A stretch of DNA of 64,000 bases from Dokdonella sp. (lineage in GTDB: Bacteria > Pseudomonadota > Gammaproteobacteria > Xanthomonadales > Rhodanobacteraceae). Position numbers and translations under genes: made by a program. Where the stretch lies: the NCBI RefSeq assembly GCF_019634845.1, contig NZ_JAHCAQ010000007.1, positions 1 to 64,000 of the forward strand, given 5' to 3'. A model generated the notes under the pieces. It was not told where the DNA came from. It ran no database searches and saw only the letters and a program-made list of their open reading frames with translations. This document shows, one piece after another, positions 12,669 to 26,200 of this stretch (the stretch's first letter is position 1; the number at the start of each line of letters is the position of its first letter).

Positions 12669-12671
12669 TCA
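12651..12671 (-). terminator. GC-rich hairpin at the end of the respiratory operon
   Basis: Perfect 10-bp arms TGAGCGGCGG / CCGCCGCTCA around one base, overlapping the stop codon of the last operon gene. No long U-tract follows, so it is a probable but not classical terminator. Confidence 0.45.
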
Positions 12672-14600
12672 GGTCGGTGGCGGCGGCGCGGTCGGCTGGA
12701 ACGCGTCGGAGAAGCAGAACTGCTCGCCGAGCCCGTGCGCAAGGAAGTCCGGCACGGCAGCCTCGACCATGCGGGTCGAGCCGCAGGCATAGACCTCGTA
12801 GCCGGTCAGGTCGGGATGGTCGGCCAGCAACGCCTCGTGCACGAAGCCGCGCCGGCCCGGCCACGGGTCATCGGCGGGAAGGTCCGACAGCACGGGCACG
12901 TAGCGGAAATTGGCATGCTCGGCCTGCCAGCGCGCGACGAGATCCTGCAGGTACAGGTCACCGGCGCCGCGCACGCCCCAGTACAGCTCGATCGGACGAC
13001 CGACGCCGCGCCGGAATGCATCTTCGAGGATGCTCTTGATCGGCGCGAAGCCGGTCGCGCCAGCGAGCATGAGGATCGGCCGCGCGCTGTCGCGCAGCAC
13101 GAAGTTGCCGAGTGGCCCCTCGAAGTCGAGCCGATCGCCCACCTTCATCGCCGTGAACACGTGGCCGGTGAAGCGGCCATCGGGAATGCGGCGGATGTGC
13201 AGCTCGATCACGTCGCCCGCGCTGGGCCTGGGTTCGCCGGGCGGACGCGGCGCATTGGCGAACGAGAACGCACGCTTGGCGCCGTCATCGAGGATGATGT
13301 TGATGTACTGGCCGGCGATGAACTCGATGTGCTCGCCCGCCGGCAGCGCGACGAACAGGCGCATGAGATCGTCCGACAGTCGCTCCATGCGCTGCACACT
13401 GGCCTGCCAGCGGCGCGGCGCGCCCGCGCTCGCGTCGGTGAGCGAGATCACGCCCTCGACTTCGAACTCGACGTCCTCCTGCGCCACCGCGCAGCACATG
13501 AGTGCCTGGCCGCGCGCGCGCATTGCCGCAGTGAGCGTGGCTTCCTGATAGGGCCCCGGATCGACGCGCCCGGCCAGAACCGTGCACAGGCACACGCCAC
13601 AGCCACCGGAGCGGCAGTCGAACGGCAACGTCAGGCCCGCGCGCAGGCCCGCGTCGAGCAAGGTCTCGCCGGCACGCGCACTCGCGCGCGCGGGGCCGGG
13701 ATGGATCGTGAGCTGGTTGACGACCTTGCCGCCGCGCCGCAGCGTGAGCCACGGCAACACGTAGAGGAAGACCGAGGCGCCGACCACGATCGCCCACACG
13801 GTCGACAGCGGGCCGTTGCGGATCAGCGGGAAGATCGTGAGCAGGAACCAGTCCAACGACAGCGTGGTCGGTTCGGTGCGCAGGTCGGCCATGCCCTGGC
13901 TGGCAACCGGGGCGATGATCGCGAGCGCGACGAGCATGCCCATCATCGCCGTGGCCAGCGGCCGCGGCGGCTGGGTGGTGGCCTTGGGTACGCGCTGCAC
14001 GTGCACCCACATCAGCAGCAGCAACACCAGCGACACGCCGATGTGCACGAACACGAGCAGCGAGAACAGGCGGTCGCTGACGTGCTCGGGCAGGATGAAA
14101 TTGCGGATCAGGCGGCCGCCGAAGCCGGGCAGCCAGTCGAGCCATTCGAAGCTGGTCTGGGTGACGTATTGCGCAAGGCGGTCCCACGGCAGCATGAAAC
14201 CGTTGGCACCGACCACGTAGACCAGCCATAGCAGCATGACGCCGGTGACCCACGAAAACGCCCGGAAGCCGCGCAGGCGGTCGAAGGCGAAGTTGCGCAA
14301 CATGTGCAGCAACATCAGCAGCACCATCGCGTCGGAGGCATAGCGGTGCACGCTGCGCAGCACGTTGCCGCTGCCCCAGCCGCCGTGGCTGATCGCCTCC
14401 ACCGATTCGTAGGCGCCGGTGACGCTCGTGTTGAAGAACGCGTACAGGATCAATCCGGTCGCGCCGAGGATCCAGAACAGGTAGAAGCAGATCTGCCCGA
14501 GGTGGTACAGCGGGTTCATGCGATCGCCGAAGGCGCGATTGAACAATGCCTCGACCGCCATGAAACCAGCGCGCAAGCCGCGCTGCACAATCGCCACCAT
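12669..14600 (-). CDS. Cytochrome b / [2Fe-2S] ferredoxin / FAD-NAD(P)H reductase fusion
   Basis: A 643-residue membrane flavocytochrome, last gene of the respiratory operon. Residues 1-290 form a cytochrome b6-like part with two His pairs spaced 14 apart (H85/H99, H186/H200), expected to bind two b hemes. Residues 295-385 form a plant-type ferredoxin domain with Cys C329, C334, C337 and C369 or C370. Residues 395-630 form a ferredoxin-NADP reductase-like part: flavin motif RAFSFA, nucleotide motif GATGFAPIKS and CGSTRMVEA. The layout predicts electron transfer between NAD(P)H, FAD, Fe-S and membrane hemes, with quinone or the partner oxidase as the other end. Its start overlaps the stop of the upstream oxidase-like gene (TGATG). 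Direction of flow is unknown. The triple fusion is unusual. Confidence 0.85.
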   Translation of the reverse strand: MVAIVQRGLRAGFMAVEALFNRAFGDRMNPLYHLGQICFYLFWILGATGLILYAFFNTSVTGAYESVEAISHGGWGSGNVLRSVHRYASDAMVLLMLLHMLRNFAFDRLRGFRAFSWVTGVMLLWLVYVVGANGFMLPWDRLAQYVTQTSFEWLDWLPGFGGRLIRNFILPEHVSDRLFSLLVFVHIGVSLVLLLLMWVHVQRVPKATTQPPRPLATAMMGMLVALAIIAPVASQGMADLRTEPTTLSLDWFLLTIFPLIRNGPLSTVWAIVVGASVFLYVLPWLTLRRGGKVVNQLTIHPGPARASARAGETLLDAGLRAGLTLPFDCRSGGCGVCLCTVLAGRVDPGPYQEATLTAAMRARGQALMCCAVAQEDVEFEVEGVISLTDASAGAPRRWQASVQRMERLSDDLMRLFVALPAGEHIEFIAGQYINIILDDGAKRAFSFANAPRPPGEPRPSAGDVIELHIRRIPDGRFTGHVFTAMKVGDRLDFEGPLGNFVLRDSARPILMLAGATGFAPIKSILEDAFRRGVGRPIELYWGVRGAGDLYLQDLVARWQAEHANFRYVPVLSDLPADDPWPGRRGFVHEALLADHPDLTGYEVYACGSTRMVEAAVPDFLAHGLGEQFCFSDAFQPTAPPPPT

Positions 14601-16060
14601 CACTGATTCTCCGCCGGTTGGGGTGCGCGCCGGCGACCACGCATCGCGCCGATCACCACCAGTGCAAACAGCAGGCCGCCGATGATCGCCAGCAGCCCAC
14701 CCAGGCCCATGAGTCCCATGCCGGCCACTTCGCCTGCGCTGCGCAGCACCTGCTCGCTGCCGGCGACCTTGCGCTGCACGCCGTAACCGCCCGACCACAC
14801 CAGCCCGATGATGTGCAGGAGCTGGCCGATGCCGTACAGCCACGGCTGGGTCACGGCCAGGCGGCCACGTGGCGCGGCAAACCCCAGGCGCGGCAGCAGC
14901 CAGTACACCACGCCCATGAGCGCGAGCGTGACGCCGACGATGCAGCCGTGGTAATGCGCCGGAATCTTGACGTTGCTGCCCTGGATGCCGATGCCGATCA
15001 CGCCGCCCGCGACGAACAGCAGCATCGACGCCAGCAGTGCCGCCCGCAGTGGTCGCTGCTCGGCAGGCAACTGGCGCAGCGGCAGCACCGCGATGAGCGC
15101 GGCCAGCGCCACCGGCGCGATGGCAAGGCCACCGCCGATGCGCATGGCCCAGGTGTGCATCGCGCGATGCTCGACCGAGGCCACGTCATGCATGAGGTAG
15201 GCCAGCGGCGTCACGAACACACCGCCGAGCGCGATCACGAACAGCACCAGCACCACGCGCGGACTGAGCGGCACACGCCCACCGCAGGCGCGCGCCAATG
15301 CCAGCCACGACACCAGCATGAGCAGGGTCCAGGTGAACTGCACCGCATGACCGCCGCCCCAGAACAGGATTTCGTAGTAGGCCTTGGCCGGCAATGCGCG
15401 CGGCACCTCGAGCAGCGACCAGCCGAACGCGAGCAGCGCGACTGCGCCGGCCACCACGCTGGCGTGCAGGCCGAAGCGCAACGCCGCGCTGCCATCGACC
15501 GCCGTGCCGACCCGTTGGCCACGCGCGAGGCCGAGCAGCACGAGCAGCAGGCTGCCGGCGCCGAACAGCCACAGCGCGCCGCGGAAAGCCGCGCTGTCGA
15601 GTACGGGAATGTAGTTGGCCATGATCGCCTCGCCCGGATCGACGAAGGCGGCCACGCCCATCGCCAGCGAACCCAGCGCGCACAGCGCAAGCGGCGCGCC
15701 GGCCACCGCGCGGCCCAGCGGCGTCGCAAACGGGCGCAGGTTGAGGCTCCACAACATGCCGGCGATGGCGACGAACCACACCAGCACCGACAGGTCCACG
15801 TGCACGACGAGCGCGATGCGGAAGAAGTCGGCGGTCGGCAACACGGCGTTGACGCCCGGCGTGCGCGCCAGCACGAGCAGGATCGCGAACACGCCCGAAC
15901 CGAGCAGCGCGGCCAGCGCAAGGCCGAGCCAGGCCTGCACCAGCAGGCGGTTGCCGGCGTCGATCGCCGGCAACACATAGCCGGCGCTGGCGGGCAGCGT
16001 CGATGCCTCCGGCGGCGACGCCCCGGCCCGGTCCGCGCCGATGGCTACCTCGCCGTTCAT
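14600..16060 (-). CDS. Heme-copper oxidase subunit I-like protein, non-canonical active site
   Basis: A 486-residue protein with about 12 transmembrane helices and the heme-copper oxidase subunit I layout. H87 (VVHVDLSVLVW) fits the low-spin heme ligand in helix II, H238 (FWGGGHAVQF) the helix VI metal ligand, and H369/H371 (PAHYHG) the HxH heme ligands of helix X. At +4 from H238, where A/B-type O2 reductases have Tyr and NorB has Glu, there is Phe. In the helix VII region the visible motif is LMHDVASVEH, i.e. HD rather than the usual HH pair. It could be an NO reductase-like branch or a structural homologue; cbb3-like annotation would be only approximate. Overlaps with both neighbours (ATGA and TGATG) argue for a stoichiometric complex. 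Confidence 0.8.
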   Translation of the reverse strand: MNGEVAIGADRAGASPPEASTLPASAGYVLPAIDAGNRLLVQAWLGLALAALLGSGVFAILLVLARTPGVNAVLPTADFFRIALVVHVDLSVLVWFVAIAGMLWSLNLRPFATPLGRAVAGAPLALCALGSLAMGVAAFVDPGEAIMANYIPVLDSAAFRGALWLFGAGSLLLVLLGLARGQRVGTAVDGSAALRFGLHASVVAGAVALLAFGWSLLEVPRALPAKAYYEILFWGGGHAVQFTWTLLMLVSWLALARACGGRVPLSPRVVLVLFVIALGGVFVTPLAYLMHDVASVEHRAMHTWAMRIGGGLAIAPVALAALIAVLPLRQLPAEQRPLRAALLASMLLFVAGGVIGIGIQGSNVKIPAHYHGCIVGVTLALMGVVYWLLPRLGFAAPRGRLAVTQPWLYGIGQLLHIIGLVWSGGYGVQRKVAGSEQVLRSAGEVAGMGLMGLGGLLAIIGGLLFALVVIGAMRGRRRAPQPAENQ

Positions 16061-16584
16061 TGCAGGACGATCGCGCCTTGGTTGGCGTCGAAATCGACGA
16101 CCAGCACCTGGCCCGGCGCCAGCGTGACATCGGCCGAGCGCGTGTAGGTCTGGGCGCCTGGCCGCACGTCGTCGTTGAGGCTCACTTCCAGATGGTGGTT
16201 GCCGGCCGGCACCGCCAGGCGCTCGTAGATCGAGGAGGCGCCATCCTTCGACAGGCCGGTCGGCGGCACCACGCGGTCGAGCACGCTCTTGCCATCGAGT
16301 TCGACGCGCATCGTCAGCGGCGCGCGTTCGCGCGGACACTGCTCGGGAAAGCGCATGTTGGGCGGCAGCTTGTCGAGTTCGGCCTGGCTGAGCTTGCGGC
16401 ATTCGCCGATCGGCTTGCCCACGTGCGACACACTGAGTTTGATCAGCGCCTGCTCGGCGCCGAGCGGATGGTAGGGCGGCCACTGCGAAAACACGCCGAT
16501 GGCGAGCGCGAACAGGCCGTACAGCACGAGCTGGCCGAGCCAGCTGAACAGGCCATGGGGTGTGGAGGGTCGGGTGTCGGACAT
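16057..16584 (-). CDS. Membrane-anchored protein of the respiratory operon
   Basis: A 175-residue protein not recognised as a named family. One N-terminal transmembrane segment (LFSWLGQLVLYGLFALAIGVF-like, about residues 11-30) is followed by a periplasmic-looking domain of beta character with a Cys pair (GECRKLSQ and PEQCPRER). It contains YHPLGAEQALIKLSVSHVGKP at the start of the soluble part (split here as YHPLGAEQ...SHVGKP). Its stop overlaps the start of the oxidase-like subunit (ATGA), so it is probably an accessory or assembly subunit. The start is the ATG at 16584; longer frames upstream are out of context because the preceding gene ends at 16604. Confidence 0.7.
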   Translation of the reverse strand: MSDTRPSTPHGLFSWLGQLVLYGLFALAIGVFSQWPPYHPLGAEQALIKLSVSHVGKPIGECRKLSQAELDKLPPNMRFPEQCPRERAPLTMRVELDGKSVLDRVVPPTGLSKDGASSIYERLAVPAGNHHLEVSLNDDVRPGAQTYTRSADVTLAPGQVLVVDFDANQGAIVLQ

Positions 16585-16603
16585 GTTCGCCAGGGACCGT
16601 GGA

Positions 16604-18094
16604 TCAGTTGGATGGAATCGACAGGGTCCGCACGCGCTCGCGCAGGCGCGCCACGGCTGCGGCCAGCGCCGCCTCGTCACCCGGTCCGGCCTGCACCCGC
16701 TCGAGCCGCTCGCGCGGCATGCGCGCGCGCAGGCGCGGTTCGCGCCGGCCTGCCAGCCGCTCGGCGGTCCAGCGCTCGCCGAGGCGAAACTCGCAGCCGC
16801 CGTCGCGGCAGGTCGCCACCACCACACCGGCCGCGCCATCGCGCAACGCATACTCGATGAAGCTCGGTGGAAGCTGTCCGGCGCAGATCAGGCCAAGCAC
16901 GCTCGTGTCCTCGCTTAGCGCGGCGCTGGCGCTTGCGCCATGATCGCATGTGAATATGACCAGCGGCTCGCGGGCCGTCGAGGTTGCGACATCTTGCCGC
17001 AGACGGCGCCGCAATGCATCGACCGTGAGCTGCGGCATGTCGATGCCGCTGACCAGCGTCTCCACGCCGCGGAACGGGGTCGACGACGGGCAGGCCCCGG
17101 CGCAGATGCCGCAGGCCACGCACAGGTCGGGGTCGACCTGCGCCAACAGGCGCCCGACCCGCGGCTGCGGATGCGGCACCATCGTGATCGCGGCATACGG
17201 GCAGTCGTCGAAGCAGCGTTCGCAGCCACTGCAGTTGGCCGGATCGACCACCGCCACGGCCGGCCGCGCCGGTTGCGGCAGGAACGGCGCCAGCACCAGC
17301 AAGGCCATCGCACCAGCCACCAGCGCCCAGGTGACGCCGCGCGTGGACGCATCGGTGAGCGGATGCAGCCACAGCACGAACCAGTCCAGTGCGACCGGCT
17401 CGGTCAGCGCGGCCGCCGGCGGCTGGCTCAGCACGGGCGCCACCAGCGCCAGCACGAGCAGCAGCAGCGACACGCCCAGCGCGAGCGAGCGCGGCGGCAT
17501 CACCGCGGCGCGACTCAGGCGCTGGAGATGGAACCACAAACCGAACAGCAGCAGCAGCGACACGCCGATGTGGATGAAGATGAACAGCGAAAACAGCCGG
17601 TCGCTGACCGCGTCGAGGGCAAGGAAATTGCGCGCAAACGGCGCGCCCAGCAACGGCACGGCGTCGAGCCATTCGGCGCTGGCCAGCGCCGAATACTGGC
17701 CGAGCCGATCCCACGCCAGCCAGAAGCCGCCCACGGCGCTGATCGCCGCAAACGCCACCGTCGGCACCCCGGTCAGCCAGTGGAAGCGGCGCACGCCGCG
17801 CTCATGTCGGTGCAGCCATTCGCGCACGATATGCAGCGCGATCACCACCACCAGCACATCGGTGGCGTAACGATGCACGCCGCGCAGCAGCCGCCCGCTC
17901 GCGAGCGGCCAGGTCTCGAGTGCCGTCACCGAACGCCACGCCCCCGCCACCGAGGTGTCGTAGACGGCGTACAGCAGCACGCCGCTGGCGAGCAGCAGCC
18001 AGATGGCGAGGAAGCCGATCGCGCCGAGATGACGCAACGGATTGCAGGCGGCACCGAACGCGGCATCGAAGCCGCGCTCGAGCGCGCGCCACAT
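16604..18094 (-). CDS. Cytochrome b / dicluster ferredoxin / FlpD(MvhD)-like fusion
   Basis: A 496-residue fusion. Residues 1-275 form a cytochrome b6-like membrane part with His pairs H74/H88 and H175/H189 (14 apart), clearly paralogous to the one in the last operon gene (shared HRYAxD, AWDRLGQY, SDRLFSL). Residues 280-345 bind two [4Fe-4S] clusters: C288, C291, C294, C298 and C325, C328, C331, C335. Residues 375-450 resemble the FlpD/MvhD iron-sulfur family: C383 (FTCDHG), C404 (LICAGQ), C429 and C434 (ATCRDGGCEF) with GAAGVVV between. MvhD normally links hydrogenase to heterodisulfide reductase, so finding it on a cytochrome b in an aerobic-type gammaproteobacterial operon is unexpected. 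An electron-input role is inferred. Confidence 0.85.
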   Translation of the reverse strand: MWRALERGFDAAFGAACNPLRHLGAIGFLAIWLLLASGVLLYAVYDTSVAGAWRSVTALETWPLASGRLLRGVHRYATDVLVVVIALHIVREWLHRHERGVRRFHWLTGVPTVAFAAISAVGGFWLAWDRLGQYSALASAEWLDAVPLLGAPFARNFLALDAVSDRLFSLFIFIHIGVSLLLLFGLWFHLQRLSRAAVMPPRSLALGVSLLLLVLALVAPVLSQPPAAALTEPVALDWFVLWLHPLTDASTRGVTWALVAGAMALLVLAPFLPQPARPAVAVVDPANCSGCERCFDDCPYAAITMVPHPQPRVGRLLAQVDPDLCVACGICAGACPSSTPFRGVETLVSGIDMPQLTVDALRRRLRQDVATSTAREPLVIFTCDHGASASAALSEDTSVLGLICAGQLPPSFIEYALRDGAAGVVVATCRDGGCEFRLGERWTAERLAGRREPRLRARMPRERLERVQAGPGDEAALAAAVARLRERVRTLSIPSN

Positions 18095-18096
18095 GC

Positions 18097-19155
18097 TCAG
18101 GCCTTGCTGCCGGATGCCGAAGCGGTGTTGACCGGCGGGCATGGCTTGCGTCGCTCGCGGCGCTGCCGGAGCCATTCACGGAAGAAGTAGACGAACACGC
18201 TGAAGAAGAACAGCACGCCGCCGGCGATCTCGAAGATGAGCTTGTAGTCGTAGCGGTACTGGCCGGTCTCGGCATCGTAGACCGTGCACAGGATGCGCAC
18301 GCGCTCGAACATCTCGCCGAGCGTCGTCGGCTTGGCCTGTGGCTCCCACAGCAGCAACTGGCGCAAGGGCGAGCCGAGCTGCTCGGCGGTGACGCCGTCA
18401 CCGAGCACCTGGGCGCTGATGCGCCCCTCGCCGTCGACGACGGTGACGCCGAGCACATGGTCGAATCCGGCCGGTGTCGGCGCCCAGCTGAAGCCGAACG
18501 CGCGCGTGAGCGCATCGACATCGCCGGCGGCGGGGCTGAGGAACTCCCAGTTGCGGTAGTTGATGCCATGTTGCGCGGCGAAGGCCTGCATCGCACCGGG
18601 CGAATCGAACGGCTGGTTGAAGCCGATGCTGACGACGTTGAACTGATTCTCGCCGAGCATGCGGTCGAGGCCCTTGACCGCCTGGTACAGCGTGCGGGTC
18701 TGGGTCGGGCAGACCTGGAAGCAGCCGGTGTAGATGAAGCTGACCAGCAGCGGCTTGCCGCGATAGGCAGACAGGCGCAGCGGCTGGTTGCGGCGGTCAC
18801 GCAACTCGATGTCGGGCACGTGTTTGCCGACCGCGGCGAGCGCGTTGCGGATCGCGGCCTGTTCGTCGAGGGCGGGGGCGCCGGCCAGGCTGCGACCACT
18901 CGTATCGGCCGCCAGCAGGCTGCCGCTCGCACCCAGCAGGGTCAGCGCCAACAGGCGGGCCAGGTGCGGCAGCCGTCGCGCAAGCACAGCTCGGCCGGCG
19001 TGGCTGCCGGCAGGGACGCGGGTCGCGGCCGCAGCCAGCGTGGCCACCCGCATCGGCATGGGCGCGACCGCCATGATCGCCAGCGCAGCGATCACGCCCG
19101 GCACGATCAGCACTTCACGCCCCACGACATGCCCATCACGTACTCGCTGTTGCAT
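18097..19155 (-). CDS. SCO-family copper chaperone / assembly protein
   Basis: Up to 352 residues. The thioredoxin-like SCO core contains the copper-binding GCFQVCP (CxxxC) and the distal His in FDHVLGV. A membrane helix near the C-terminus (IFEIAGGVLFFFSVFVYFF) and a basic tail (QRRERRKP) follow, so the protein is anchored at its C-terminus. SCO proteins deliver copper to the CuA site of subunit II, which fits the CuA protein encoded two genes upstream. The start is uncertain: ATGs at 19155, 19074, 19059 and 19053 are all in frame; the last two give a conventional signal peptide ending near GSLLAA. It ends 2 bases before the cytochrome b/ferredoxin fusion. Confidence 0.88.
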   Translation of the reverse strand: MQQRVRDGHVVGREVLIVPGVIAALAIMAVAPMPMRVATLAAAATRVPAGSHAGRAVLARRLPHLARLLALTLLGASGSLLAADTSGRSLAGAPALDEQAAIRNALAAVGKHVPDIELRDRRNQPLRLSAYRGKPLLVSFIYTGCFQVCPTQTRTLYQAVKGLDRMLGENQFNVVSIGFNQPFDSPGAMQAFAAQHGINYRNWEFLSPAAGDVDALTRAFGFSWAPTPAGFDHVLGVTVVDGEGRISAQVLGDGVTAEQLGSPLRQLLLWEPQAKPTTLGEMFERVRILCTVYDAETGQYRYDYKLIFEIAGGVLFFFSVFVYFFREWLRQRRERRKPCPPVNTASASGSKA

Positions 19156-19199
19156 GCGGCCAGGTCCGCCATCGACCGCGTCACCGCCGCCTCACCTCG

Positions 19200-19247
19200 C
19201 AGGCCGCCTGCGGCCTGCATGGCCGTGGGTGCGCTGCACCCACGGCC
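19200..19247. repeat. Two tandem hairpins between subunit I and SCO genes
   Basis: CAGGCCGC-CT-GCGGCCTG (19200-19217) and a 12-bp-stem hairpin GGCCGTGGGTGC-GCT-GCACCCACGGCC (19221-19247), 14 bases after the subunit I stop. No U-tract follows on the coding strand. They could stabilise the upstream oxidase mRNA or attenuate the distal genes. Confidence 0.6.
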
Positions 19248-19261
19248 TTCCAGCATCTTGC

Positions 19262-20962
19262 TCAGCTCAGGCCCCACAGCGTCGACAGGTACTTCCAGTT
19301 GATGAAGTAGTACAGGACGAAGGAGACCAGGAACACCATGGCCAGCACGAAGGTACCCGGCGCGGCGAAACCCGACGAGCCGTAACCTTCGGCCACCACC
19401 GCGGGAGCGGCGCGCTTGACCGGCGTGAACTGCGCGCTGGTCGCGCCGCCGTCGAGCTTCTTGCCCCACAGCAGCGAGCCCACCGTGATGTAGATGAAGG
19501 CTGCGCCGCCAACGATCGCGGCGACGCCGCCGATGCCGACCAGGCCCATCATGAGGTAGGCCGCACCGGGCCATTCATAGGCGAGCGCTGCGCCCTGGAA
19601 CGCCATGTCCCAATGACGGCGTGACACGCCCAGGGTTCCGGCTCCCATCATGACGAGGCAGAAGAAGTACATCGACAGTCCGAACAGGTAGGGCTGCCAC
19701 TGCGCGAGCTTGGGCGCGATCATCTCGCGCTTGAACAGCACCGGGATCAGGTAGAAGGTCAGCGCCATGAACGTCAGCGTGGTGCCCACCACCACGGTCG
19801 CATGGAAATGACCGGGCACGTAGATCGTGTTGTGGATGATGAGGTTGAGCTGCTCGGTACCCATCATCACGCCGGTGATGCCGCCGAGGAAGCCGAAGCC
19901 GATGATCGAGATGAACACGCCCGCGAACACCGGATTGCCCCATGGCGCCTTGCGCAACCACTCGAACAGGCCCTTGGTGTAGCCCTTCTGCCGCTGCGCG
20001 ACTTCCATCGCGCCCGGCACGGTCAGGCCGTGCAGCATCGAGGCGAGCACTGCCAGGTACATGAAGTAGCTCGTGTTGACGACCTTCCACGCGGTCGACA
20101 CGCCCGGATCGGCGAGCAGGTGGTGCGCGCTGGCCAGCTGCAGGAACAGGATGTAGAGCAGGAACGCCATGCGGCTCACGCGCTCGCTCATCGGCTTGGC
20201 GCCGAGCACGACCGCGGCCACCAGGTACCACACCGAGACGTGGGTGGCGACGTTGATCTGCTGCGACGAGTGGCCGAGCGCCCACCACACGGTGCGGTAG
20301 ATCAGCGGATCGACATTCATCAGGCCCATCGACATCAGCCATGCCGGCACGATGATGAGGGCGCCCGACAACAGCGTGAACACGGCGATGATCGCCGCGG
20401 TCATCGCACCGAACGTGACCAGCGGAATCGAGCCTTCATAAGTCTTTTCGCGCCGCGCCACCACCAGCGTGCCGAAGAACACGCCGCAACCGATCAGCGC
20501 ACCGACCGCGAACAGGATGATGCCGAGGTAGAAACTCGGTGCCGCCATCATCGGCACGTAGCTCGTCATCATCACGCTGGAGCCACCCTGATAGACGGCG
20601 ACGTTGTTGACGATCGAGCCGACCACCATCAGCACGAAACCAAGCCAGGCGAGCTTGGGGGTGGCGATGCGACAGCGCAGCAGCGTCGAGGAACAGAAGT
20701 GCAGGACCGCGATCTCGAAGAAGATGATCCAGAAGATCAGCATGTCCAGACCATGCGCAGTCAGCACCTGGTAGAACGTGGGAGCCTCCAGCCAGCGCAC
20801 GGCGGGCCAGCGCGTGAGCACGACGCCGAGCGCAAGCAGGCCGCCGATGAGCAGCCAGACCACGCCCATGAAGGCATGTGCCTTGATCAGCCACTCGGCC
20901 TGGCGTTCGAACTGCAGCCCGGAGCGCGGGCAGGTGCGATAGGTGGTCGCAACGGTAGCCAT
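19262..20962 (-). CDS. B-type (ba3-like) heme-copper oxidase/NO reductase-like subunit I
   Basis: A 566-residue polytopic catalytic subunit. Ligands by position: H70 (TAHGLDM) and H387 for the low-spin heme, H385 for the high-spin heme (PGHFHA), and CuB ligands H231 (WALGHSSQQ) and H280/H281 (ASAHHLLADPG). The HH-x-x-ADPG motif is characteristic of the B (ba3) family. In O2-reducing members a Tyr four residues after the helix VI His is cross-linked to it; here that residue is Gln235. Loss of this Tyr is typical of NO reductase-type members of the superfamily. Function as an O2 reductase is therefore doubtful and an NO reductase-like role is plausible (inference). It lies 11 bases after subunit II. 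Confidence 0.92.
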   Translation of the reverse strand: MATVATTYRTCPRSGLQFERQAEWLIKAHAFMGVVWLLIGGLLALGVVLTRWPAVRWLEAPTFYQVLTAHGLDMLIFWIIFFEIAVLHFCSSTLLRCRIATPKLAWLGFVLMVVGSIVNNVAVYQGGSSVMMTSYVPMMAAPSFYLGIILFAVGALIGCGVFFGTLVVARREKTYEGSIPLVTFGAMTAAIIAVFTLLSGALIIVPAWLMSMGLMNVDPLIYRTVWWALGHSSQQINVATHVSVWYLVAAVVLGAKPMSERVSRMAFLLYILFLQLASAHHLLADPGVSTAWKVVNTSYFMYLAVLASMLHGLTVPGAMEVAQRQKGYTKGLFEWLRKAPWGNPVFAGVFISIIGFGFLGGITGVMMGTEQLNLIIHNTIYVPGHFHATVVVGTTLTFMALTFYLIPVLFKREMIAPKLAQWQPYLFGLSMYFFCLVMMGAGTLGVSRRHWDMAFQGAALAYEWPGAAYLMMGLVGIGGVAAIVGGAAFIYITVGSLLWGKKLDGGATSAQFTPVKRAAPAVVAEGYGSSGFAAPGTFVLAMVFLVSFVLYYFINWKYLSTLWGLS

Positions 20963-20973
20963 GTGGATTCCCC

Positions 20974-21513
20974 TTATTTCACGTACAGGCGGCTGACCAT
21001 CATGTGATGGCCCAGACCGCAGTATTCGTTGCAGACGAGTCCGTAGGTGCCCGACTGGTTCGGCGTCACCGTGACCACGTGCTCAAACCCCGGCACCAGC
21101 TGGATGTTGATGTTGGCCGGCTGCAGCGAGAAGCCATGGTTGTAGTCGAGCGAACTCAGGTGCAGGCGGTAGGTCTTGTCCTTCTCCAGCTCGATGATCG
21201 GCCAGAACGACCACATGCGCGCGACGAGGTAGACGTCGGCGCCGGGCGGCGGCGCGACCACGGGGATTTCCTGATCGGTCTCGGTGCGAACCTGGTATTT
21301 CTCGGTCGCGGCCTGCGCCTTGGCCATGTACTGCTCGGCCGTGGTGCGATAGGTCTCGGTGGACAGGTTCTGTTTGCCCCAGATGTGCCAGCCGACCATC
21401 ATGAAGAACAGGATCATGCACCAGGTCAGGGCGATCGCGAGCCAGGTGCCCTCGACACGATCGATGGGGTGCTTGTACCAGAGTCGTTCCGCAGGAGGCA
21501 GTATCGCGCTCAT
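20974..21513 (-). CDS. CuA-containing subunit II
   Basis: A 179-residue subunit with one N-terminal transmembrane helix (about residues 24-45) and a cupredoxin domain in the periplasm. All CuA ligands are present: H126 (LDYNHGFSL), C161, E163, C165, H169 and M172 (CNEYCGLGHHMM). The short size and single helix match ba3-type subunit II rather than the two-helix A-type. It should accept electrons from a cytochrome c or cupredoxin and pass them to subunit I. A helical, charged spacer (about 50-80) separates anchor and cupredoxin domain. It lies 18 bases after the small subunit and 11 before subunit I, so it is firmly within the operon. Confidence 0.95.
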   Translation of the reverse strand: MSAILPPAERLWYKHPIDRVEGTWLAIALTWCMILFFMMVGWHIWGKQNLSTETYRTTAEQYMAKAQAATEKYQVRTETDQEIPVVAPPPGADVYLVARMWSFWPIIELEKDKTYRLHLSSLDYNHGFSLQPANINIQLVPGFEHVVTVTPNQSGTYGLVCNEYCGLGHHMMVSRLYVK

Positions 21514-21531
21514 GTGTGGTTCCCCTGTCGC

Positions 21532-21696
21532 TTACTTGGATACGGGCACGAGCAGGATGTCGATGACACCCCACACGTTGTAGACGAGCATCGGGATCAG
21601 CACGCCCAGCGTGAGCAGGATGAACGGGCTGTCCAGAAGCTGTTGCATCCACGGCACGGCTTCATTGGGATCGTCGTGTTCGGTCGGTGTTGTCAT
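21532..21696 (-). CDS. Small single-helix subunit (subunit IIa-like)
   Basis: A 54-residue peptide: an acidic N-terminal segment (TPTEHDDPNEAVPW) then one transmembrane helix (about residues 23-47; SPFILLTLGVLIPMLVYNVWG) and a short tail. ba3 oxidases have a comparable one-helix subunit IIa; homology is inferred from position and topology, not from residues. GGAGGGG lies 3-9 bases before the ATG at 21696. It is the first gene of the operon. Confidence 0.75.
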   Translation of the reverse strand: MTTPTEHDDPNEAVPWMQQLLDSPFILLTLGVLIPMLVYNVWGVIDILLVPVSK

Positions 21697-21850: not shown

Positions 21851-21864
21851 TTGATGTGGGTCAA
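21851..21864. promoter_or_regulatory. FNR/DNR-type binding site
   Basis: TTGATGTGGGTCAA matches the TTGAT-N4-(A/G)TCAA consensus of FNR, ANR and DNR regulators, with one mismatch from perfect symmetry. It lies 155 bp before the first ATG of the respiratory operon. It implies induction under low oxygen and/or NO. No clear -10 was identified. Confidence 0.65.
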
Positions 21865-24089: not shown

Positions 24090-26141
24090 TTACAGCAGCG
24101 GCACCAGCAGCAGGGCAACGATGTTGATGATCTTGATCAGCGGGTTCACGGCCGGGCCGGCCGTGTCCTTGTAGGGATCGCCGACCGTGTCACCGGTCAC
24201 GGCCGCCTTGTGCGCGTCCGAACCCTTGCCGCCGAAGTTGCCGTCCTCGATGTATTTCTTGGCATTGTCCCAGGCGCCGCCGCCCGTCGTCATCGAGATC
24301 GCGACGAACAGACCGGTCACGATCGTGCCGATCAGCATGCCGCCGAGCGCCTGCACACCGGCCAGCGGGCCGCCGAGCCAGCGGAAACCGAACGCGACCA
24401 CGATCGGCACCAGCACCGGCAGCAGCGAGGGAATCATCATTTCCTTGATCGCGGCCTTGGTCAGCAGGTCCACCGCCTTGTGGTACTGCGGCTTGCCCGA
24501 ACCGTCCATGATGCCCTTGATCTCGCGGAACTGGCGGCGCACTTCCTCCACCACCGCGCCGGCCGCGCGGCCGACCGCCTCCATCGCCATCGCACCGAAC
24601 AGGTACGGGATGAGGCCGCCGATCAGCAGGCCGATGATGACGTAATGGTTGGAGATGTCGAAGGTGTAGACCACGCCCGGGTGCTCGACGCCGAGCTTGT
24701 GCGTGTAGTCGGCGAACAGGACCAGCGCGGCGAGGCCGGCCGAACCGATCGCATAGCCCTTGGTCACGGCCTTGGTGGTGTTGCCGACCGCATCGAGCGG
24801 ATCGGTGACGGCGCGCACCTCAGACGGCAGTTCGCTCATCTCGGCAATGCCACCGGCGTTGTCGGTGATCGGGCCGTAGGCGTCGAGCGCCACGATCATG
24901 CCCGTCATCGACAGCATCGAGGTTGCGGCGATCGCGATGCCATACAGTTCGGCCAGCTGGTAGGCGCCCCAGATCGCCGCACACACCGCCAGCACCGGCC
25001 ACGCGGTCGACTTCATCGAGATGCCGATGCCGGCGATGATGTTGGTGGCGTGGCCCGTGGTCGAAGCCTTGGCCACGTGGCGCACCGGGCCGTATTCGGT
25101 TGCGGTGTAGTACTCGGTGATCACGACCATCGCGCCCGTCAGCAGCAGGCCGATCACGGCGCAGCCGAACACGTTCATGGCGCCGTAGGTGCTGCCGGCC
25201 ATGAGCTGCTGGGTGACCGGGTAGAACGCGATCAGCGCGAGCACGCCCGACACGATCACGCCCTTGTACAGCGCGTTCATGATCTTGCCGCCCGAATGCT
25301 TGACGAAGAAGGTGCCGATGATCGAGGCGATGATCGACACGCCGCCGATCACGAGCGGATACAACACGCCGTGCGGGCCGGCCTGCGCGGGCATGACGCC
25401 GCCGAGCAGCATCGTCGCCACCAGCGTCACCGCATAGGTCTCGAACAGGTCGGCCGCCATGCCGGCGCAGTCGCCCACGTTGTCGCCCACGTTGTCGGCG
25501 ATCACGGCCGGGTTGCGCGGATCATCTTCCGGGATGCCGGCCTCGACCTTGCCGACGAGGTCGGCGCCGACGTCGGCACCCTTGGTGAAGATGCCGCCGC
25601 CCAGGCGCGCGAAGATCGAGATCAGCGACGAGCCGAAGGCCAGGCCGACCAGCGCATGCAGCGCCTTGTCGGGCGTGCTGCCGGTCTGCAGCAGGGCGAC
25701 GTAGTAGCCCGCCACGCCGAGCAGGGCGAGGCCGACCACGAGCATGCCGGTGATCGCACCACCGCGGAACGCCACCGCGAGCGCAGCCGGGATGCCACTA
25801 CGCGCGGCCTCGGCCGTGCGCACGTTGGCGCGCACCGAGATGTTCATGCCGATGTAGCCGGTCAGGCCCGACAGCACGGCGCCGAGCGCGAAGCCGATCG
25901 CAGTCGGCCAGTCGAGCGCGACGCCGATGACGACCAGCAGGATCACGCCGACCAGCGCGATCGTGCGGTACTGGCGGTTGAGATAGGCGCGCGCGCCTTC
26001 CTGGATCGCCGCAGCGATCTCCTGCATGCGCGGATTGCCGGCGGGCTTGGCCAGGATCCAGCGGATCGACCAGGCGCCGTAGACGATCGCGAGCACGGCG
26101 CAGCCGAGCGCGATCCAAAGACCGTATTGACTGAAGAACAT
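24090..26141 (-). CDS. hppA: Membrane-bound proton-translocating pyrophosphatase, K+-independent type
   Basis: A 683-residue polytopic pump that hydrolyses PPi and exports H+. The substrate-binding motifs are intact: [20 protein letters not shown], the [16 protein letters not shown] acidic cluster, and the C-terminal [18 protein letters not shown]. In [15 protein letters not shown] the Lys after NTT marks the K+-independent class (K+-dependent enzymes have Ala there). Start at the ATG 26141 gives the normal membrane-embedded N-terminus; AAGGGGAAG lies before it. It is transcribed from a promoter with a perfect TATAAT box at 26201-26206. It may recover energy from PPi released by biosynthesis and pairs with the PPi-type phosphofructokinase nearby. 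Confidence 0.97.
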
Positions 26142-26200
26142 CGACTTCCCCTTGGAGGCAAGGTGGTTGGAACGGCGGGAATGCAAGGCAAAACGGGCCG

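Follow-up and report, generated by a model that had tools for sequence, protein, structure and literature searches.

An eight-gene operon on the minus strand of a Dokdonella sp. contig (NZ_JAHCAQ010000007.1, of which positions 1 to 64,000, the whole stretch analysed, are called the window here) raises the question of which respiratory reaction is served by two proteins of the heme-copper oxidase fold encoded together with two cytochrome b fusions. A sequence-only reading had proposed that NAD(P)H and a low-potential Fe-S donor feed quinone or a centre reducing nitric oxide (NO) or O2. We found that the operon most likely encodes an NO-reducing centre of the eNOR type, as judged from its conserved residues, and the explanation that we favour, with moderate confidence, is an eNOR-type NO reductase for denitrification together with a copper insertion factor and an electron-input module. 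The eight genes occupy positions 12669–21696 and are read from 21696 down to 12669 as follows.

21532–21696, minus strand: 54-amino-acid (aa) one-helix protein, probably an eNOR subunit IIa-like small subunit, its place kept in relatives
20974–21513, minus strand: predicted eNOR subunit II, a CuA cupredoxin (H126, C161, E163, C165, H169, M172), from Pfam and alignment
19262–20962, minus strand: COX1a, predicted eNOR subunit I, with ligands H70, H231, H280, H281, H385 and H387 and with Gln235, from Pfam, alignment and tree
18097–19155, minus strand: SCO/SenC copper-insertion protein with a C-terminal helix, CxxxCP and a distal His, from Pfam; start uncertain
16604–18094, minus strand: cbFd, a diheme cytochrome b (H74, H88, H175, H189) with two 4Fe-4S motifs and an MvhD/FlpD-like tail as in HdrA2
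16057–16584, minus strand: 175-aa protein with one N-terminal helix and a beta-sandwich, without a family match
14600–16060, minus strand: COX1b, of the oxidase fold, with heme ligands H87, H369 and H371 and the CuB-type H238; the His-His pair is absent and Phe stands at +4
12669–14600, minus strand: cbFNR, a diheme cytochrome b (H85, H99, H186, H200) with 2Fe-2S ferredoxin, FAD and NAD(P)H domains

All eight genes of the sequence-only reading were present and its naming agreed with Pfam, whose domain names were in turn shared by NCBIfam. The COX1 model matched twice (5.6e-62 and 4.7e-13) and COX2 matched subunit II slightly below its cut-off of 22 bits (21.9 bits, 1.7e-4). SCO1-SenC matched the SCO gene, Cytochrome_B, Fer4 and FlpD matched cbFd, and Cytochrome_B, Fer2, FAD_binding_6 and NAD_binding_1 matched cbFNR, so that the CuA subunit II, the SCO protein and the two cytochrome b fusions with different tails were borne out at the domain level. 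The Pfam scan gave zero matches for the 54-aa and 175-aa proteins, each of which has one helix in line with the two small membrane proteins that had been described. No Rieske or cytochrome c1 family was found by Pfam among the eight operon proteins, as a bc1 complex would require. The reported overlaps of 1–4 bases were also recovered, as a 4-base ATGA between the 175-aa gene and COX1b and as a single base between COX1b and cbFNR. The SCO product is 352 aa long if started at 19155, but possibly shorter, and its stop lies two bases from the cbFd ATG used here; a longer cbFd start at 18175 would overlap it.

The position four residues after His231 holds the cross-linked Tyr in O2 reductases. In COX1a it is Gln235, and Gln was found there in all 80 aligned rows (the window and 79 loci), as were the six heme and CuB His ligands; relatives from Thermus, Thermomicrobium and Defluviimonas carry the same QQ motif. 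According to Table A4 in the excerpt of PMC8756737 available to us, Gln at this position is the criterion for eNOR, while Asn indicates sNOR, Asp gNOR and Glu c/qNOR. By this criterion COX1a was rejected as a B-family (ba3) O2 reductase, which would carry the Tyr, as an sNOR or gNOR, since neither Asn nor Asp is found, and as a cNOR or qNOR, since Glu is absent and the protein falls outside the c/qNOR clade. The latter was seen in a 40-protein tree, a check proposed with the sequence-only reading, in which COX1a and the Gln-type proteins of the three genera above formed one clade (98/94) apart from ba3 and c/qNOR; this tree carries a long-branch warning for the qNOR and CcoN rows, and a characterised eNOR sequence was not among its rows. 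The CuA ligands of subunit II were kept in 79 of 79 rows and its best PDB match was a ba3 subunit II. The NO reductase predicted here is of a known kind, eNOR, which the part of PMC11388526 that we could consult, citing Murali 2024, describes as biochemically characterised as an NO reductase and related to the B-family oxidases.

The tie to denitrification was evaluated in a class sample of 274 gammaproteobacterial genomes, to which the genome counts in this text refer. Of 56 matches at E <= 1e-3, those at E <= 1e-100 were counted as eNOR, which gave 24 genomes, including one represented by a fragment. NirS was called at E <= 1e-140 (32 out of 108 matches, the weaker ones taken as NirN/NirF) and cNOR at E <= 1e-70 (58), and qNOR was assigned from its score together with the frame length (20); the NorB query was from S. 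meliloti, chosen by motif within an unannotated stretch. The 24 eNOR carriers were spread over 20 family codes. Fifteen of them had a cd1 NirS, compared with 17 of the 250 other genomes (Fisher 2e-10, uncorrected for phylogeny), and any d1-type protein (E <= 1e-110) was found in 21 carriers and 33 others. Neither cNOR nor qNOR was found in 15 of the 24 carriers, and among the NirS genomes a cNOR or qNOR was present in 5 of the 15 with eNOR as against 15 of the 17 without it (p = 0.003, likewise uncorrected for phylogeny). Under a single family code (f154), one genome (G153) combines NirS with cNOR and another (G264) NirS with eNOR.

The same association was visible at the level of loci, where a NirS-like match (>=55% identity) was found in the flanks of 21 of the 59 loci of at least 15 kb. 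In one genome (G227), a run of the eNOR genes, cbFd, the 175-aa gene and COX1b leads into a NosR/NirI-like gene and nirS. The Dokdonella genome itself (G000) has a cd1 NirS match at C6:79638-80816 and a NirK match at C12:146146-147045. NosR/NirI-like proteins were also seen near nirS-type genes and COX1b at L155:10901-12520, named by Pfam (FMN_bind and Fer4_5), and at L157:3982-5592 and L158:12613-14355, named by eye.

The sequence-only reading had further suggested searching for co-occurrence of all eight families across genomes. Our COX1a scan gave at least 586 candidate stretches, at least 557 of them relatives, and the best 80 loci were kept, which were mostly from Burkholderiales with some Lysobacterales and other Gammaproteobacteria and included many metagenome-assembled genomes. 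All eight families occurred together in 62 of these loci, 53 in the window's order and nine in one permuted order with the cytochrome b fusions swapped and COX1b last (L042, L050, L051, L053, L057, L063, L065, L069 and L078), which is far beyond chance. Of the remaining 18 loci, 14 are truncated by contig ends and four are without one gene. COX1b is missing at L010, elsewhere in whose genome only fragments of distant COX1b relatives were found, and cbFd is missing at L028, L041 and L068. The 54-aa gene was found in 78 of the 80 loci, the other two being cut at that point; at its position, Thermus, Thermomicrobium and Defluviimonas have an open reading frame of 41–60 aa, with 52% identity across 46 residues in the case of Defluviimonas.

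COX1a and SCO are more than 700 bases apart in 74 of 78 relatives, and in the five loci inspected the gap holds a heme O synthase-like gene, assigned to the UbiA family by Pfam in the one tested (L005). There is no such gap in the window (19156–19261) or in L003, L028, L031 and L041, and the heme O synthase-like gene of the Dokdonella genome lies on another contig (C19, 39% identity). The core extends to the alphaproteobacterium Defluviimonas, where the small subunit, subunits II and I, heme O synthase, SCO, cbFd and a relative of the 175-aa protein (39% identical) are followed by a hemerythrin-like gene; COX1b and cbFNR were not among the annotated genes of that stretch. A CtaA-like gene (heme A synthase, named by eye) was observed divergently beside the G227 eNOR operon (L156:9532-10497), and weak CtaA-like matches (E <= 1e-8) were present in 24 of the 59 long loci.

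A diheme membrane domain is common to cbFd and cbFNR. The four heme His ligands of bc1-type cytochrome b were invariant in alignments A3 and A5, and the cbFd cysteines were invariant in the 25 rows of A5; because rows of a wider alignment were mislabelled, with four of 71 cbFd-labelled rows lacking these cysteines and some cbFNR-labelled rows (L030, L038 and L043 at least) actually being the other fusion, invariance is claimed for A3 and A5 alone. Beyond the b domain, cbFd matched HdrA-type 4Fe-4S and MvhD proteins, its b domain matching cytochrome b6/b. Counts of Lys and Arg place the tails of both fusions in the cytosol, for cbFd only once one marginal helix is dropped.

Across the genome sample, cbFd was found in 24 genomes, of which 23 also carry eNOR, and the pairing is 23 of 24 in both directions, the exceptions being G264, whose eNOR sits at the end of a contig, and G215, which is 77% complete; two of the 24 cbFd counts (G205 and G268) are fragments over two contigs each. 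Full-length cbFNR was limited to two genomes, G000 and G082, both eNOR carriers, the G082 copy being distant from the eNOR genes, and the other cbFNR matches, among the matches listed, were a reductase tail or a b domain alone. Regular occurrence of the fusions apart from any heme-copper protein, which had been named as the refuting outcome, was therefore not seen (cbFd 23/24, cbFNR 2/2 in eNOR carriers). Most eNOR carriers of the sample are without cbFNR, and in four of the five carriers without COX1b, the ones read at length, eNOR is accompanied by cbFd and the 175-aa gene but not by cbFNR. Conversely, the genomes of L028, L041 and L068 (three operon genomes, completeness unstated) have cbFNR and no full cbFd match anywhere. 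A third tail was found in G156 (L161:672-3212, C65), which carries, in addition to cbFd and near COX1b and eNOR, the b domain with a tail of the diflavin reductase type (flavodoxin, FAD and NAD(P)H domains), a tail without a second copy among the loci compared. By these comparisons eNOR is nearly always partnered by a diheme b protein, the tail of which appears exchangeable. The three tail types on one b domain, Fe-S, NAD(P)H and diflavin, favour a role as electron donors, which we infer for the b fusions.

The other oxidase-fold protein, COX1b, stands apart from COX1a. Both had been read as heme-copper subunit I-like proteins, which holds for the fold of both but not for the CuB site of COX1b, where the heme His ligands are kept while two of the three CuB ligands are missing and only H238 remains, the His-His pair being replaced in 66 of 66 rows. 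As a catalytic heme-copper subunit I, which would have three CuB His ligands, COX1b was accordingly rejected, and since two of these are lost it would not be a second NO or O2 centre by known chemistry. COX1b was called at E <= 1e-50 (30 genomes out of 35 matches); 5 of the 24 eNOR genomes lack it, and 11 of the 250 without eNOR have it. Together with the absence of cbFNR from most carriers, this argues against the eight genes as one obligatory unit. Judging from its ligands, COX1b most likely belongs to the electron-input module as a heme protein without catalytic function, and its family is of interest as one of oxidase-fold proteins that kept heme ligands and lost copper. Stand-alone CuB-less relatives (L115, L117, L118, L119 and L120) were observed beside cytochrome oxidase or heme synthesis genes or an rpoH-like gene.

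A candidate regulatory site precedes the operon:

21851–21864, minus strand: FNR/Dnr-like box TTGACCCACATCAA, 9 of 10 consensus bases, centred ~161 bases upstream of the first gene

The consensus of FNR/Dnr-type boxes is TTGAT-N4-ATCAA. The best box reached at least 8 of 10 bases in 55 of 79 upstream regions, compared with 10.7% of 3950 random windows from the same loci and 4.8% of shuffles, although the upstream-region counts are not independent because the loci are related. In many loci the box lies ~60–110 bases ahead of the start, and transcription of the operon is probably under an FNR/Dnr-type regulator.

In the explanation that we favour, the operon would build an eNOR (subunits IIa, II and I) and its SCO protein for copper insertion, along with a module for electron input. 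The high-spin heme/CuB centre of subunit I would convert NO into N2O with electrons that, by homology, arrive from the CuA of subunit II. cbFd and cbFNR, one with the HdrA/MvhD Fe-S tail and the other with the 2Fe-2S/FAD/NAD(P)H tail on the same diheme membrane domain, would pass electrons from cytosolic donors through the two b hemes to the quinone pool or a p-side partner, so that different donors could drive NO reduction. COX1b, with heme ligands and without CuB, would be a non-catalytic member of this module. Sequence comparison supports the eNOR assignment, the CuB loss of COX1b, the nirS link, the box enrichment, the cbFd pairing and the three tails on one b domain, whereas we infer the direction of electron flow, the roles of COX1b and the 175-aa protein and a physical complex. 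Of the earlier proposal of an NO/O2-reducing centre fed by NAD(P)H and Fe-S donors, an NO centre is most likely present and both tail types on a diheme b were borne out; COX1b as such a centre was not supported.

It is conceivable, but in our view doubtful, that NO respiration here is independent of quinone, in that NAD(P)H or a low-potential Fe-S donor would feed CuA and eNOR directly through exchangeable diheme b 'wires', and COX1b would serve in the same complex by transferring electrons or handling quinone. The main rival to the donor role is one in assembly, which we judge unlikely: cbFd and the 175-aa protein may act like CcoG and CcoH of cbb3 oxidase, reducing or delivering copper or heme for eNOR. 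The steady placement near heme O synthase and SCO would fit this, as would the near exclusivity of cbFd to eNOR genomes, the build of the 175-aa protein from one helix and a beta-sandwich, and the roles given for CcoH and for CcoG, a cupric reductase with two 4Fe-4S clusters, in the excerpt of PMC7558416. However, CcoG as described in that excerpt has Fe-S clusters and copper sites and no diheme cytochrome b, and the CcoG/FixG and FixH Pfam models were unmatched at the limits used, though lack of a match is no disproof. That the b domain is also found with NAD(P)H and diflavin tails speaks against assembly as well, although a copper reductase could use other donors too.

That COX1a is instead a high-affinity O2 reductase of the B-family type seems very unlikely to us, even though ba3 oxidases are its closest solved structures, every CuB and heme ligand is retained, and a related sNOR from Nitrosomonas is argued to be an oxidase in the part of PMC6967387 at hand; the Gln in all 80 rows in place of the cross-linked Tyr, the tracking of eNOR with cd1 nitrite reductase and with the absence of c/qNOR, and the eNOR activity published according to the PMC11388526 excerpt all point to NO. 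We give equally little credence to COX1b as a second, heme-only enzyme reacting with NO or O2 and fed by cbFNR, which would make it a membrane-bound NAD(P)H:NO reductase lacking the second metal. All 66 rows retain the high-spin heme ligand of COX1b together with a single CuB-type His, and its gene overlaps that of cbFNR in the window, but the CuB/FeB pair is missing and most COX1b genomes of the sample are without a full cbFNR.

Several observations weigh against the account of a denitrification eNOR with its own input module. The NO-reducing activity of this enzyme is itself predicted from sequence. A nir-type match is absent from the window, the flanks of 38 of the 59 long loci have no NirS-like match at 55% identity, 3 of the 24 carriers have no d1-type match at E <= 1e-110, and NirK above the cut-off showed no association (1/24 carriers, 14/250 others). 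The co-occurrence counts are uncorrected for phylogeny, though the carriers span 20 family codes. The eNOR is probably not the only NO reductase of the Dokdonella genome, because a divergent NorB-like gene is also present (C1:189529-190917, 36% to S. meliloti NorB). The eNOR clusters of Thermus and Thermomicrobium have neither such a cytochrome b nor a second oxidase gene nearby, so not every eNOR needs a b fusion, and COX1b occurs without eNOR in 11 genomes.

Among known systems, eNOR (Hemp and Gennis 2008; Murali 2024; via excerpts of PMC8756737 and PMC11388526) shares the B-family-like subunit I with Gln for Tyr, the CuA subunit II and the tie to denitrification genes, but here SCO, one or two cytochrome b fusions, the 175-aa protein and the CuB-less oxidase-fold protein come after subunit I. 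The sNOR of nitrifiers (norSY-senC-orf1) has a CuA subunit II, a B-family-like subunit I and a SenC/SCO gene in common with the operon, but its Tyr position is Asn (Table A4 in the same PMC8756737 excerpt) and not Gln. The cbFd tail matches the HdrA 4Fe-4S and MvhD/FlpD domains of the heterodisulfide reductase parts HdrA2 and MvhD, but here it is attached to a diheme cytochrome b of the bc1/b6 type whose partner is an NO reductase. Qmo is another system near the heterodisulfide reductase parts. Sox, like Fox, encodes heme-copper subunits with cytochromes b, and the Fox cluster has a second subunit I gene. As far as the excerpt of PMC10654088 goes, the archaeal Fox cluster, which also encodes heme-copper subunits with cytochromes b, is linked to Fe(II) oxidation and O2, and the best fold match of FoxC is an ethylbenzene dehydrogenase subunit, not a bc1-type cytochrome b.

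The sequence-only reading knew of no described complex of this composition. The eNOR part is of a known kind; an eNOR operon with b fusions and a CuB-less oxidase-fold protein was not described in the literature searched, which did not cover the main eNOR paper. The operon is a test case for an NO reductase that would have cytochromes of its own for electron input, exchangeable among three tail types. All of the 12 closest plasmid-borne eNOR-type genes found were annotated as cytochrome oxidase, and denitrifiers using this operon can therefore seem to lack an NO reductase. By our matches 15 of 24 carriers are without cNOR and qNOR, and this bears on who makes N2O, a greenhouse gas, from the toxic substrate NO. 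Several Accumulibacter genomes are reported in the excerpt of PMC6446978 to be without a known NO reductase gene although able to make NO, a gap that an overlooked eNOR could explain.

On a Thermus thermophilus NAR1 plasmid (L136), ~4 kb of DNA that includes a transposase separates an eNOR-type gene pair from a nitrite reductase gene; the pair is annotated as cytochrome oxidase, and genes for an Rrf2 regulator and a DUF542 protein are near. In the window, a membrane H+ pyrophosphatase gene lies close to the operon at 24090–26186.

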